Below, piece after piece: positions 3,160 to 63,924 of a DNA stretch of 64,000 bases. Origin of the DNA: Syncephalis fuscata (taxonomy: Eukaryota > Zoopagomycota > Zoopagomycetes > Zoopagales > Piptocephalidaceae); NCBI GenBank assembly GCA_025786725.1, contig JAHLTZ010000017.1:124001-188000 (forward strand), in the 5' to 3' direction. How positions within the stretch are numbered: the first letter of the stretch is position 1; the number at the start of each line of letters is the position of its first letter. The position numbers were made by a program, and so were the translations under genes. The notes below the pieces were generated by a model. That model worked only from the letters and a program-made list of their open reading frames with translations. It did no database searches and was not told the origin of the DNA.

Positions 3160-4270
3160 ATGAAACTTATTGCCGTCGTCTTCGCACTTATCGTAATTTT
3201 TGTGGCTACTATAACCATAGTAGATGCCAAGCCAGCTCCAGGCCGTCGTGGTATGTTGCAATTATAACAAACACGGGATGCTAATATGTTAATCTGCCAT
3301 TAATAGAACGTAAGCTGTATTATGTAATCAACGATTTAACTAAACATTGGTTTTATTCAACAAATTAAAAATATAGCTTGTAAGTAACATCATATATCGA
3401 TTGGCTATGCATTAATTACAACTGTTTATTGCGTGTGTGCCAATGGCTTAATGCTAGTAGGCAGCAAGTAATACTGTATGCTGCCTGTCTAATCTCTAAT
3501 CAATTGTCATGTATTGTGTGTATCAATGACTTACTATCAATAGTTTGTAAGTAAATGGCATACTAATTATCCATGTACTAATTAAATAATATATATTGCG
3601 TATACCAACAACTTAATACTAATAGGCAGTAAGTAACAATATATATTAATTGGCTATACGTTAATTATATGCCGATTATGTGTATCGGTAACTTAATATA
3701 ATAGGTCGTAAGTGGCATTATATATTAATTGACAATAAATTAATTGCGCAATATGGTCTACGGGTATTAAAAATTTAACATTAATAGCTAGTAAGTGACA
3801 CCATATATTAATTATCTAAAGACTAATTATATGCTACATTTTGGATATGCTTAATAACTTATGCCGATAGATGGTAATTGATATTGTATATTGATTGACT
3901 ATACATTAACCATATGATTCCCGTGTATGCCAACAATTTTATATTAATAGGCTGTAAGTGATATTGTACAATAGTTTACTATCCACTAATTACTTTTTTG
4001 TTATGTATTGATAACTTATATTAACAGCTAGTAAGTGTTATTGCGTATCAACTAATTATGTATTAATTATATGCTATGCGTTGTTTATATTAAAAAATTA
4101 ATGTTAATAGTGTGTAGATGATATTGTATAATGGTTAGCGATTTACTAATGATATGTTTTCTATGTGCCTAATAACTTGCACTAAAAGGCTGTAAGTAAC
4201 AATATATATTAATTGACTATGTACTAATTGCATATTATCTGCTGTGTGTCAATATTGTATATTAATAGAA
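3160..4270 (+). CDS. Secreted peptide precursor A: leader exon plus a chain of 3-nt microexons
   Basis: Exon 1 (3160-3250) encodes a signal peptide of about 23 residues (MKLIAVVFALIVIF..., ending VDA), then KPAPGRR and one G of the next codon. Donor is G|GTATGT. After it comes a tandem array in which AG-NNN-GTAAGT recurs. Predicted microexons: AAC 3307, CTT 3377, GCA 3461, TTT 3544, GCA 3626, GTC 3705, CTA 3788, ATG 3871, GCT 3951, CTA 4028, TGT 4111, GCT 4189, AAT 4269. In phase 1 they read E-P-C-I-C-S-P-N-G-S-M-C and a stop formed by T|AA across the last junction. The product is 42 residues, with the mature peptide beginning just after a dibasic Arg-Arg (Kex2-type) site. Seen: leader, splice-site spacing and frame. 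Inferred: that every unit is spliced. Alternative: one long intron from 3251 to 4414, adding only E-K-K before a stop. Some donors are weak (GCAAGT, GTAATT, GTAGAT, GTAGGT). Confidence 0.6.
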
Positions 4271-4414
4271 TGTAGGTGGTACGCATATCAATTAACTATT
4301 CACTAAATATATGCCGTACAATTTGTTCTTTATGCCTGCATTAACATATGGTAAGTGATATTGTATATTGATGGCTATACATTAGCTATATGATATTGCT
4401 GTATGTATTTATAG
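3251..4414 (+). repeat. Tandem array of about 80-bp intron units separated by exactly 3 nt (array A)
   Basis: Fourteen degenerate units, 70-84 bp apart. Each unit starts with a GTAAGT-like donor, has a middle resembling ATTGTATATTAATTGACTAT, and ends in ATTAATAG. Between the AG of one unit and the GT (or GC) of the next there are always three bases, and those three bases vary far more than the unit itself. The 14th unit (4346-4350) reads AT-ATG-GTAAGT, so its acceptor AG is lost; it lies after the predicted stop. The final acceptor is ATTTATAG at 4414. Confidence 0.85.
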
Positions 4415-4700
4415 AAAAGAAATAACCAATATTCTCAAGACATTATATTGCTAATGTAGCTGGACTATTAGTTCAGTATATTTTAGGTATACAATCAACA
4501 ATAATCAACATCATTTGACAAGTATGCCGTTCAATCTATTCAATTATTAAGTTCTGCCCAATGCTCCAATCTATTCAGCATCTAATCAATAGCACCATTA
4601 TACTATTAATAAGCTTAAATTTATTTGCACCTATTCAACTAGGCAGACTTTTAATAACAAATACGTGGTTTATTTTAATTTTATTTGATTACATTGTGTC
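4415..4700 (+). other. Terminal exon / 3' flank of peptide gene A, conserved with paralogs
   Basis: Sequence from CCAATATTCTCAAGACATT onward aligns with the reverse complement of 32400-32650 downstream of copy B. Shared landmarks include CAATGCTCC, CTAATCAATAGCACCAT and ATACTATTAATAAGC. Related 3' flanks occur at 47140-47340 and 63480-63725. I read it as untranslated 3' exon. Confidence 0.6.
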
Positions 4701-6978: not shown

Positions 6979-8006
6979 ATGCACGCAAGTCTAGGCATTC
7001 TTGTGGCTTGCTTGCTACTCGTCTCTGGCGCAGCGAATGCTGACGTCAAAGGTAATAACTACTTAGAATGAATTGTTCTATCAATACTAACATTAAATTA
7101 GAAATGCACTCAGGCCATGACCCTCGCGCTCCTATCCCGGCTAAGATTTCTGGACTTGGTGGCCCATGTGGAGGTGCGCTATGGCCTCCTCACATTTGCG
7201 CACCTGGCCTGAAATGTATACCAAGTGGTCTTCCCGGCGCGCCGGGTCACTGCCTGCCTTTCCATAAACCGCACCGCCGACGTGGTCTGGCTGGTTTAGG
7301 TCAACGCTGTGGCGGTCATGGCAGTCATCGTCGTCGCTGCAAGCACGGACTTGTCTGCAAGCCAAGAAACCCGCTGCATCCAGGCAGAAGCGGTGTCTGT
7401 GTCCGTCGTCGTCGTAAGCCATCTCACGGCCATCACGGAGGTAATGGAGGTAACAACGGAAATAATGGAGGTAATAACGGAAATAATGGCGGTAACAACG
7501 GAGGTAACGGTAATGACAACGATCACAAGCACTATGGCAATAATGGAGGTAATAACGGCGGCAATAACGGCGGCACTGGCAATACCGGTGATAATAACGA
7601 CCATAAGAACTATGGTAATAACGGTGGCACTGGCAATACCGGTGACGATAATGACCATAAAAACTATGGTAATAACGGCGGCAATAACGGCGGCACTGGC
7701 AATACTGGCGATGATAACAATAGTACTGTTCATTATGGCAATAACGGCGGTAATAACAACAACACAGGCGGCGATAATGGAGGTAATGGCAACACAGGCA
7801 ATGATACTGGAGACTATGATAATACTGGAGACACTGGTGATAATGGTAACACAGGTGGCGAAGACAACACCGGTGCTGGCGATTATGACGCCACTGGAGG
7901 CGAGGGAGGCGAGGATAATGATGATGACTATGCCGATGGCGGTGAAGGAGATGAGGGCGATGAAGGAAGTGATGATGATGATAGTCCCTACGATATTACA
8001 GTTTAG
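6979..8006 (+). CDS. Secreted protein with two GxxCGG cysteine modules, Asn/Gly repeats and an acidic tail
   Basis: Two exons: 6979-7051 and 7102-8006, 325 residues. The 50-nt intron has a GTAATA donor, a perfect TACTAAC branch site (7085-7091) and a TTAG acceptor. Exon 1 is almost exactly a signal peptide (MHASLGILVACLLLVSGAANA). The mature N-terminus holds two four-Cys modules, GGPCGG...HICAPGLKC...GHC and GQRCGG...RRCKHGLVC...GVC, separated by a basic HKPHRRRG linker. Then come tandem imperfect Gly-Asn repeats (GGNNGGN, GGTGNTGDDND; about 7435-7860), and the last 50 residues are rich in Asp, Glu and Gly. A surface or cell-wall role is inference. The start of exon 2 (AAATGC) could be misread as a separate gene start without the signal exon. 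Confidence 0.75.
7435..7870 (+). repeat. In-frame GGN/NGG minisatellite within the secreted protein gene
   Basis: Imperfect repeats of GGTAATAACGGNGGNAATAAC-type units, with a longer unit of about 60-70 bp (near GGCACTGGCAATACCGG...TATGGTAATAACGG) occurring about three to four times. Frame is maintained throughout, so the repeat expands or contracts the Asn-Gly region of the protein. Confidence 0.7.
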
Positions 8007-32296: not shown

Positions 32297-32640
32297 TCTA
32301 TAAATGATTGCATTGAAATAAATAGTATTATATTAATTAGATGATTGGTATTAGTGTTTATGTGGTTAAATAGGATAGTTATGGTTTGATGAAATCTAAT
32401 TAGAATAAAACCATGTATTTATTATTAAAAGTTTGCACAGCTAAATAGATACAACTAAGTGCAGGCTTATTAATAGTATCATGGTGCTATTGATTAAATG
32501 TAGAATAGATCGGAGCATTGGCTAGAAATTGATAGGTGAGTAGATTGAACGATGTAATTGTCAAATGGTCTTGATTGTTACCGGATATATACCTAAGTGT
32601 ATTGGACTAACATTCCAACTACATTGCCAATGCTAATGTC
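32297..32640 (-). other. 3' flank of microexon peptide gene B, conserved with paralogs
   Basis: On the minus strand this aligns with the 3' flanks of the other peptide genes (4430-4690 plus; 47100-47340 minus; 63480-63725 minus). Landmarks are ATATATCC/ATATATTC just after the stop, CCAATAC, and AATGCTCCG. It separates the midasin stop from the peptide gene by only 360 bp, tail to tail. Confidence 0.6.
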
Positions 32641-32656
32641 TTGAAGATATTGGCTG

Positions 32657-33464
32657 TTAGCTGCCTATAAATACATACATTACATACCATATGATTAATG
32701 TATAAATTAACGCGATAAAATATTACTTACCCGCTATTGATGTTGAATTATTAGACACACAATGCATAATATATGTTATTCAATAATTTGTTAATATAGA
32801 ATGCCACTTACCAACTATTGATGTTAAATCATTAAATACACATTGTATTGCATAAGTTAATTCATGATTAGTTGAGATACAATATCACTTACGACCTATT
32901 AATGTCAAGTCATTAAACAGACAGTACATATCATATGTTAGTGCGTAGTAATTGATATACAATGTAACTTACCAGCTATTGATGCCAGATTATTAAGTAC
33001 AAAATACATAACATGTGTTAGCGTATAAATAACTAGCCTATAATGTCACTTACTAACTATTGATGTCAAACCATTAAACATACAGTGCATGGCACATGTC
33101 AATGCATAGTTAATTGCTATACGATGTAACTTACCATCTATTGCTGTTAAACCATTAAATACACAGCGCATAGTATATGTTAATTTGTAGCTAATTAATA
33201 TACGATGTAACTTACCAGCTATTGATGCCAAATTATTAAACACACAGCACATGGTATTTGATTAGTATATAACTGATTAATATACAATGCAACTTACGTT
33301 CTATTAACATTATTTTGGCAAGTAAAAGCAGTGCTTAGTTAAAAAAACAATTATTTTAACCGTAACATACCACGACGAACTAGAGTTGGCATAGCATCCA
33401 CCATGGCTATACTGGCCATAAAGGCTACGATGAAAGTGCAAACGATGGCAATAGAAAACTTCAT
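32657..33464 (-). CDS. Secreted peptide precursor B: leader exon, eight 3-nt microexons and terminal exon
   Basis: Minus strand. Exon 1 (33371-33464) encodes the leader MKFSIAIVCTFIVAFM..., ending VDA, then MPTLVRR and one G; donor G|GTATGT. Microexons (plus-strand positions): AAC 33298-33300, CTG 33216-33218, ATG 33135-33137, TTA 33054-33056, CTG 32973-32975, GTC 32893-32895, TTG 32812-32814, CGG 32731-32733. Each is preceded by AATAG and followed by a perfect GTAAGT. The terminal exon begins at 32664 (TTTATAG|GCAGCTAA). Joined in phase 1 they read E-P-D-V-T-G-L-A-G-S then TAA, giving 41 residues. The Arg-Arg before Glu-Pro is a probable Kex2 site. The gene is the same design as copy A but more regular. 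Alternative: splicing exon 1 straight to 32664, giving G-S-stop. Splicing itself is inferred. Confidence 0.62.
32666..33370 (-). repeat. Tandem array of about 81-bp intron units separated by exactly 3 nt (array B)
   Basis: Nine introns; the eight 3-nt exons are spaced 82, 81, 81, 81, 80, 81 and 81 bp apart. Unit consensus on the minus strand is GTAAGTNACATTGTATATnAATTA...TTTAATGGTTTGACATCAATAG. The intervening triplets differ from unit to unit while the splice borders are invariant. Confidence 0.88.
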
Positions 33465-47336: not shown

Positions 47337-47558
47337 CTAATCGTCTAAAGGTGAATTTCTAAAACAAGCTTTGAAACATTTAAGGTTCCGACAAAAAGCG
47401 CTGAGAATGCGGCCACCGTGACGCTCGTCGCAGTTTACGCGACAATCAATACACTTCGCAGAACGATAAACGCTTGAGCCTGGTTTAGCATCCACCATGA
47501 CTGTAGTGGCTACCAGAGCCACAACAACGGTGCAAACGACGGCAATAGAAAGCTTCAT
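47337..47558 (-). CDS. Secreted cysteine-rich peptide C (intronless paralog of the microexon peptide genes)
   Basis: 73 residues, minus strand, start ATG 47558. Signal peptide MKLSIAVVCTVVVALVATTVMVDA is the family leader. The mature part after KPGSS holds six cysteines (KCIDCRVNC...FCRNLKCFKAC), enough for three disulfides, and is basic. No intron. The 5' region has TATAAATAG about 123 nt upstream, and the 3' flank of about 240 bp matches those of the other three members. No Arg-Arg is present at the point where copies A, B and D have one. Function unknown; a secreted antimicrobial or effector-type peptide is possible but unsupported. Confidence 0.75.
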   Translation of the reverse strand: MKLSIAVVCTVVVALVATTVMVDAKPGSSVYRSAKCIDCRVNCDERHGGRILSAFCRNLKCFKACFRNSPLDD

Positions 47559-63723: not shown

Positions 63724-63924
63724 TTATGGAGCACATTTCGGCCTGCATGATGAATAACAATGGAGTGATGAATTTAACTGTGAAAAACATATGTTAAGAC
63801 ATTCCTCGCATTCCGGAGATTCCAAATCAGCACGACGAACTAAGGCTGGTTTAGCATCCACCATGACTGTACTGGCTACAAGCGCAACGACAATGGTGCA
63901 AACGACGGCAATGGAAAGCTTCAT
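63724..63924 (-). CDS. Secreted cysteine-rich peptide D (intronless paralog)
   Basis: 66 residues, start ATG 63924. Leader MKLSIAVVCTIVVALVASTVMVDA, then KPALVRR, the Arg-Arg site at which copies A and B are interrupted by their first intron. Here the sequence continues without a break (CGTCGTGCTGAT) into a mature part with eight Cys (ECEECLNIC...HCYSSCRPKC) of acidic to neutral character. Signal peptide, flanks and promoter-side sequence (TTGTTAAAACAAACAAAC) match copy C. Function unknown. Confidence 0.75.
   Translation of the reverse strand: MKLSIAVVCTIVVALVASTVMVDAKPALVRRADLESPECEECLNICFSQLNSSLHCYSSCRPKCAP

Follow-up and report, generated by a model that had tools for sequence, protein, structure and literature searches.

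The micro-exon genes (MEGs) of flatworms may be regarded as the nearest analogue of the genes described here. In published accounts, schistosome and tapeworm MEGs combine a signal peptide with runs of exons divisible by three, and they encode secreted, fast-evolving products of parasites (PMC5825161, PMC7653826). Their exons are given there as short, symmetric and 6-36 bp long, with variation arising by alternative splicing (PMC5825161), and an operational rule asks for at least seven exons, at least half of them shorter than 70 nt and divisible by three, with at least four of these consecutive (PMC7653826). Single exons of even smaller size have also been described, i.e. a 1-nt exon in Arabidopsis APC11, a 1-nt exon in Fusarium CYP621A and a 3-nt exon in Drosophila homothorax (PMC4674806, PMC12940212, PMC7392893), and these cases, one of which is fungal, demonstrate that splicing of 1- to 3-nt exons is possible. 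The aphid bicycle genes, which encode putative effectors, have unusually many small exons, and a related megacycle gene has more than 100 microexons; these are animal genes, and the sections considered do not describe one-codon exons (PMC9168663).

Here we present evidence that in Syncephalis fuscata, a fungus placed in Zoopagales, a serial and faithful splicing of codon-sized exons very probably encodes diversifying, often Cys-rich secreted peptides. The genes share with the flatworm MEGs a predicted signal peptide, the runs of exons divisible by three and the predicted secreted, fast-evolving products of a parasite; Syncephalis species are mycoparasites (PMC10386755). In contrast to the MEGs as described in these accounts, the S. 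fuscata arrays are fungal, consist almost exclusively of 3-nt exons, 4-42 of them in series, are built with repeated introns, and give no sign of selected skipping; and whereas APC11, CYP621A and homothorax are described with a single ultra-short exon per gene, whole peptides would be made here from such exons. To our knowledge, arrays of this length are not known to be spliced anywhere. A literature search of titles and abstract openings, outside subscription papers and preprints, retrieved neither genes with serial 3-nt exons nor work on Syncephalis introns, and this use of splicing is apparently undescribed.

The locus that led to the family, copy A, lies on the plus strand of the window, by which we mean the whole 64-kb stretch of DNA analyzed (Table 1). 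Its leader exon encodes MKLIAVVFALIVIFVATITIVDAKPAPGRR and is closed by one extra base (G) at position 3250, with GTATGT following from 3251. The original prediction had read behind this leader, which it took to end at Arg-Arg, 13 serial sites at which AG and GT or GC enclose exactly three bases, spaced by 70-84 bp and followed by a 3' exon from 4415, and a direct reading of the sequence confirmed the sites, their spacing and both flanking exons. The triplets span positions 3307-4271; one donor is GC (after 3463), and the four GT donors that deviate from GTAAGT are GTAAGC, GTAATT, GTAGAT and GTAGGT. When the pattern AG-N(k)-GTAAG was counted in 3231-4430 of the plus strand, k = 3 was found nine times and none of the remaining values between 0 and 12 was found. 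A further GTAAGT near 4343 (ATATGGTAAGT) was discarded as a microexon since no AG precedes it. Joining the triplets in phase 1 yields EPCICSPNGSMC and then a stop made across a junction (T/AA), just as had been predicted. The 42-aa copy A precursor used as query in a protein search returned zero candidates.

Table 1. Features of the family in the window (positions are those of the 64-kb stretch)
Feature	Coordinates	Strand	Details
Copy A leader exon	3160..3250	+	ATG at 3160; putative signal peptide to Arg-Arg plus 1 base (phase 1)
Copy A array	3251..4414	+	introns with 12 coding 3-nt exons and a 13th making the stop
Copy A triplets 1-6	3307-3309, 3377-3379, 3461-3463, 3544-3546, 3626-3628, 3705-3707	+	AAC, CTT, GCA, TTT, GCA, GTC
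Copy A triplets 7-12	3788-3790, 3871-3873, 3951-3953, 4028-4030, 4111-4113, 4189-4191	+	CTA, ATG, GCT, CTA, TGT, GCT
Copy A triplet 13	4269-4271	+	AAT; makes the stop
Copy A 3' exon	4415..4560 (end approximate)	+	start TTATAG/AAAAGAAATAACC; mostly 3' UTR; other family members similar
Copy B leader exon	33371..33464	-	MKFSIAIVCTFIVAFMASIAMVDAMPTLVRR + G
Copy B array	32665..33370	-	eight 3-nt exons AAC CTG ATG TTA CTG GTC TTG CGG; tandem repeat
Copy B 3' exon	32540..32664 (far end approximate)	-	starts GCAGCTAA; stop in phase 1
Copy C, intronless paralogue	63724..63924	-	leader same as that of the arrays, then contiguous ADLESPECEECLNICFSQLNSSLHCYSSCRPKCAP
Copy D, intronless paralogue	47337..47558	-	leader type same, without Arg-Arg; contiguous Cys-rich mature part ..SAKCIDCRVNCDERHGG..CRNLKCFKACFRNSPLDD

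A second array of the window, copy B (minus strand, 33464-32664), decodes to EPDVTGLAGS followed by a stop, and two further members, copies C and D, carry no introns. Nine joins between ordinary open reading frames were also tested in the window, and one of them gave a convincing intron, of 49 nt (GTAAGTGA..TTAACAG), so that the comparison of the array introns with ordinary introns of the window is a thin one. Like this intron, the segments between the microexons have spliceosomal ends, with GTAAGT, an A-rich branch-like region and TAG; the microexons show the AG acceptor, the GT or GC donor and the intron-like neighbours expected of a spliceosomal microexon. Rfam at gathering scores gave zero matches in the 64-kb window. 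Elsewhere in the window, positions 7059-8006 (plus strand) hold an open frame whose start is rich in Cys and which contains long repeats rich in Asn and Gly (GNNGGNNGG..); no Pfam family was found for it.

The earlier interpretation rested on a single locus and could hence have been a coincidence, so it was tested on the whole family. In the S. fuscata genome (28.95 Mb in 299 contigs) the pattern GTAAGT-N56..86-AG-NNN-GTAAGT occurs 3109 times (1334 + 1775), compared with 20 times (7 + 13) in the reversed control. With 4 bases between AG and GT there were 29 matches (21 + 8) vs 19 (14 + 5) in the reversed control, several of them reading TTAGAG, where a 6-nt exon fits, and with 6 bases there were 102 (47 + 55) vs 16 (12 + 4). 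These counts, together with the junction tests presented below, ruled out chance repeats as the source of the pattern. Because 23 of the listed 3-base matches (hand count) fall in a single gene of 34 exons, L062, the microexons of the genome may number some 4500. With the copy A leader as query, 135 genomic places were matched at E values up to 0.28, and the full precursor P0123, for which 150 of 313 candidates were scored, matched at least 147 places at E<=1e-6. By hand count, 42 of these 147 matches stay in one frame beyond query residue 40, with stops crossed in 4 cases, and 105 reach no further than query residue 38; these shorter matches come from arrays, or from intronless genes whose mature part is unrelated. 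Similar arrays were seen in pairs 19-56 kb apart (C1:475-478 kb/531-534 kb, C1:575/610 kb and C2:225/245 kb), two of these three pairs being in inverted orientation. One locus, L074 (C135:264700-269700), begins its leader with ATA rather than ATG and has array-like sites, and it is possibly a dead copy.

The length of the exons was then determined with a dynamic-programming splice decoder run with a flat prior for exon lengths from 0 to 60 nt, near-duplicate genes being included. Exactly 3 nt was returned for 585 of 612 exons and 6 nt for 10 of them. The splice-site matrices had been trained on these same arrays and favour their own signals, but they favour no particular length in the flat-prior run. 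A separate scan of acceptor-donor pairs 0-15 nt apart, which used the same matrices, placed 511 of 523 pairs at 3 nt. A decoder prior favouring 3 and 6 nt was used for the translations. An intron limit of 115-125 nt produced false exons of 44-60 nt, most of which were removed when longer introns (lost units) were allowed; some array introns measure 146-244 nt, which leaves the frame unaffected and probably marks the places of a lost microexon.

Arrays of 4 to 42 microexons were decoded in 31 of 34 sequences, nothing being obtained from L037, L074 and L084. Twenty-three of these 31 arrays, near-duplicate pairs included, are complete, with exons of 3 or 6 nt only and an open frame, and in them the stop falls within a few residues of the start of the 3' exon: by hand count, NNTAA, NNTGA or NNTAG, i.e. 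a phase-1 stop, opens the 3' exon of 16 of the 23 clean models, and in the other seven (copies A and B, L048, L054, L064, L068 and L079) 0 to 5 residues precede the stop. The eight unclean or incomplete arrays comprise L063, L051 and L072, with false long exons; L071, with an insert at its end; L070, which required a 2-nt exon; and L080, L053 and L060, which were cut off or undecoded. Twenty-two of the 23 clean predicted models satisfy the operational MEG rule, L077 having 6 exons, but the exon sizes and the random stops at junctions that skip one exon (see below) set the arrays apart from the 6-36 bp exons and splicing variants of the MEGs. The 6-nt exon was seen at nearly the same place in several related arrays, i.e. 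as the third coding exon of L062, L064, L070, L071 and L082 and the fourth of L072 and L073, as if a single ancestral intron had been lost. A similar stretch (..GAGCTTGTGAGCCCCCGC.. and kin) interrupts the arrays L051, L063, L071 and L072, and it is perhaps a mobile element that entered array introns; according to the decoder, the array units resume behind it in L051, L063 and L072.

The reading frame across the junctions was analyzed by forming each phase-1 codon from the last base of one microexon and the first two of the next, and the expected values were taken from shuffled partners. Over all fetched sites, consecutive junctions contained 1 stop in 469 vs 22.4 expected and 58 Cys codons vs 30.3 expected, whereas partners two apart, i.e. 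with one microexon skipped, contained 23 stops in 417 vs 22.1 expected and 31 Cys codons vs 28.2 expected, and the reversed order contained 30 stops in 469 vs 24.6 expected. Since near-duplicates inflate this test, it was repeated on 363 microexons of 16 genes without near-duplicates that were picked from the better decodings, several of which are still related (e.g. L062, L064, L071, L073 and L082). In these 16 genes the consecutive junctions held 0 stops in 347 vs 17.5 expected and 43 Cys codons vs 20.9 expected, none of 5000 shuffles was as extreme, and the skip-one junctions held 19 stops in 331 vs 15.8 expected. Cys accounts for 43 of the 390 mature residues of the 16 genes, and some peptides (e.g. 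those of copy B and L083) have none.

Phase 2 gave 29 stops in 469 junctions for all sites and 22 stops for the 16 genes. When read in phase 0, the triplet itself is a stop in 3 of 476 cases (all sites) and in 2 of 357 (16 genes), and because stop triplets are also few, stops alone do not decide against this phase. Phase 1 rests on the phase of the leader, whose length is 1 mod 3 in every array inspected, and on the order-dependent signal, which is present in phase 1 only. Taken together, sequence and statistics establish the length, phase and order of the exons, the avoidance of stops, the enrichment in Cys and the stop near the start of the 3' exon. At the skip-one junctions, stops are as frequent as expected by chance and Cys codons are not enriched; selection has therefore shaped the product in which all microexons are included.

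Sequence comparison also revealed intronless homologues of three arrays and placed both kinds of gene in the same large family; the CYP621A study, among those cited above for ultra-short exons, likewise used an intronless homologue as evidence. The peptide predicted from the 31 microexons of L082, one of them of 6 nt, is DPAQCAACVENCKRRTGLDWGKCRNGSCRTIC, and it matches four contiguous open reading frames with 48-52% identity and E values of 2.1e-4 to 3e-3, which correspond to four intronless genes (L086-L089) with the same type of leader. When L086 was compared with the joined L082 sequence, the 5' flanks were alike over the ~250 bp compared and the 3' UTRs were alike starting at the 3'-exon boundary of the array; identity extends to 16 of the 32 residues and 50 of the 96 bases, while none of 20,000 shuffles of the microexon order exceeded 9 residues or 45 bases. 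The L068 peptide (28 microexons; ..DTCKCQDEDGNCTSC..) matches one open reading frame, L042 on C255 (..DSCECRNFEGYCASC..), with an E value of 0.002, and by eye it also resembles L040 (..GACKCRDDDGYCTSC..). The third case involves copy C of the window, whose 20-mer TCTCCGGAATGCGAGGAATG equals T/CTC/CGGAAT/GCG/AGG/AAT/G, i.e. seven consecutive exon pieces across 6 junctions within the first 11 microexons of the array gene L072. The unspliced L072 sequence does not contain this 20-mer, which was reached by 0 of 5000 shuffles, the best shuffle giving 19. When 11 arrays were set against 10 intronless genes, such a long exact stretch (20 nt) was found in L072 only, the other arrays giving 7-13 nt, and neither the L064 nor the L073 peptide retrieved a contiguous homologue. 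The matches of L082 with L086 and of L072 with copy C lend indirect support to a presence of the microexons in the mature mRNA. The shared 5' and 3' flanks would fit a recombination of cDNA with its locus.

A profile search with the family gave 16 deposited proteins, all of them from S. fuscata; serial-microexon splicing was found in none of these 16, and neither homology to flatworm MEGs nor a relation to the aphid bicycle genes was seen among the matches, a search that requires shared 5-residue words and may therefore let remote kin escape. By eye, the deposited models P0128 and P0133 continue from the leader into intron-like sequence, and in P0125 the leader of L068 is joined to a different tail; judged by these three, the arrays seem to have been overlooked in the annotation. 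The deposited models were discarded as evidence of splicing, P0123 and the mature part of P0136 being contiguous in the genome.

As to the products, conotoxin-like organisations and fungal Kex2-processed peptides are likewise secreted and Cys-rich, with a conserved leader and a variable mature part, and are encoded by ordinary exons. Like these, the S. fuscata family is large and has a conserved signal region, often Arg-Arg, and a variable, often Cys-rich mature part, but its arrays use microexons and only its intronless members have a contiguous coding sequence. All decoded array leaders end in Arg-Arg, although the leader search demanded a basic pair, and no dibasic site precedes the mature part in the intronless genes L086-L089 and copy D. 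The L082 peptide scored 21.7 bits against the scorpion short toxin family (Pfam PF00451), below the gathering cut-off of 25.1, and this score is not relied upon here; Cys spacing alone can produce it.

The introns between the microexons have a median length of 78 nt, range from 54 to 85 nt among those shorter than 115 nt, and cover all three residues mod 3. Their mean identity is 0.62-0.91 within an array and 0.66 between arrays, with 0.54 in a shuffled control, and it drops little with distance within arrays. Identity is clearly higher within the array than between arrays for copy B, L046, L062, L064, L071, L073, L075 and L082, slightly so for L048 and L069, and not so for copy A, L066, L068, L078 and L083. 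The two arrays with the most similar introns, L075 and L046 (0.84-0.91), also show little variety in their triplets (CTN, which yields Pro-rich peptides), and their adjacent microexons share 0.51-0.55 of their bases vs 0.12-0.38 elsewhere, a pattern that would fit growth of these two arrays by duplication of intron-plus-triplet units. In six duplicated pairs, donors and acceptors changed at 8 of 1617 positions vs 227 of 9808 in the intron interior, and microexons at 16 of 426, gapped L060 sites counted, so the microexons are not conserved at the nucleotide level. In seven paralogue pairs the microexons differ more than the introns in 6 and equally in 1, differences that may be inflated by registration errors between similar units, L070 being irregular. 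Intron secondary structure was rejected as a looping device, 60 introns giving a mean z of 0.18 and an alignment of 80 giving no consensus structure.

We propose that the pre-mRNA of an array gene consists of a leader exon that runs to Arg-Arg and ends in phase 1, introns with 4-42 exons of 3 nt (rarely 6), and a 3' exon, an in-phase stop close to the start of which would end the mature peptide. The ordinary spliceosome would take out the introns faithfully and probably singly, because a 3-nt exon should be too small for complexes on both of its sides; the simplest account would be an intron-defined, sequential splicing in which the prior intron must leave before the next donor works. The codons of the mature part, each split 2+1 at a junction, would exist only in the spliced RNA, except for one whole codon within a 6-nt exon, and the secreted precursor would probably be cleaved after Arg-Arg, presumably by Kex2, to release a small, often Cys-rich peptide. 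A duplicated unit of intron and 3-nt exon could add one residue, keeping the frame at any intron length, and the triplets could diverge later. The family-wide junction tests, the decodings and the intronless paralogues all argue for the originally predicted arrangement, i.e. a leader to Arg-Arg followed by a mature peptide from serial 3-nt exons.

Since nearly all exons are of 3 or 6 nt, the frame is kept by construction and any subset of microexons could be joined, so that an array might generate peptide variants by skipping, as has been proposed for the schistosome micro-exon genes. This is improbable here, because the skip-one junctions contain stops at the random rate in both sets of sites and the Cys enrichment is absent from them; skipping may still occur occasionally. 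The microexons might also be the remains of peptide genes that were once intronless and were invaded by introns, the array copies now being pseudogenes. Such a decay would agree with the similar insert in L051, L063, L071 and L072, with the odd exon in L070 and L063, with the L064 3' exon, which lacks the usual start, and with microexons that change at least as fast as the introns, but it is very unlikely given the complete open frames of 23 of the 31 decoded arrays, the 0 stops in 347 junctions and splice sites that change less than introns in the duplicates.

The arrays could likewise be satellite-like repeats inside one ordinary intron, with the leader joined to the 3' exon, the sites acting as decoys or recursive-splicing sites and the triplets noncoding. 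The direct joining is indeed in phase and gives an early stop, with the phase-1 stop at the start of 16 of the 23 3' exons, but this reading leaves unexplained the stop avoidance, the Cys enrichment and the intronless paralogues that carry the joined sequence, and we consider it extremely unlikely. Programmed elimination of the segments from DNA instead of RNA, as in ciliates, would also account for the intronless copies with matching flanks; it is hardly credible, because the segment ends are spliceosomal, like those of the one convincing ordinary intron of the window, and because the array and intronless forms are different loci. We know of no case of programmed DNA elimination of such segments in fungi. 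Serial splicing of all the microexons of an array thus stays the reading that we prefer.

If this is true, splicing would reach a new limit here: in many genes of a single genome, dozens of 3-nt exons in a row would be joined with none skipped. Models that require room for two complexes per exon would be challenged, and the arrays would offer a natural substrate for testing the order and fidelity of splicing. It would also suggest a peptide evolution that proceeds residue by residue, in which the duplicated unit is made of intron copies and not of exons. In a broader sense the family likely represents a new gene architecture, i.e. a secreted peptide arsenal with one amino acid per exon, in which the evolving unit would be an intron plus three coding bases, residues would be gained and lost with intron units, up to about 40 ordered reactions would take place without skipping, and recombination of cDNA would give rise to the intronless copies; we rate it likely rather than highly likely because in several arrays the introns resemble one another no more closely than introns taken from different arrays do. 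The peptides might act as weapons against the mould hosts of this mycoparasite or against competitors, or in signalling. Because the deposited protein models examined miss the arrays, many secreted peptides of S. fuscata, and perhaps of other fungi, may be absent from present annotations.
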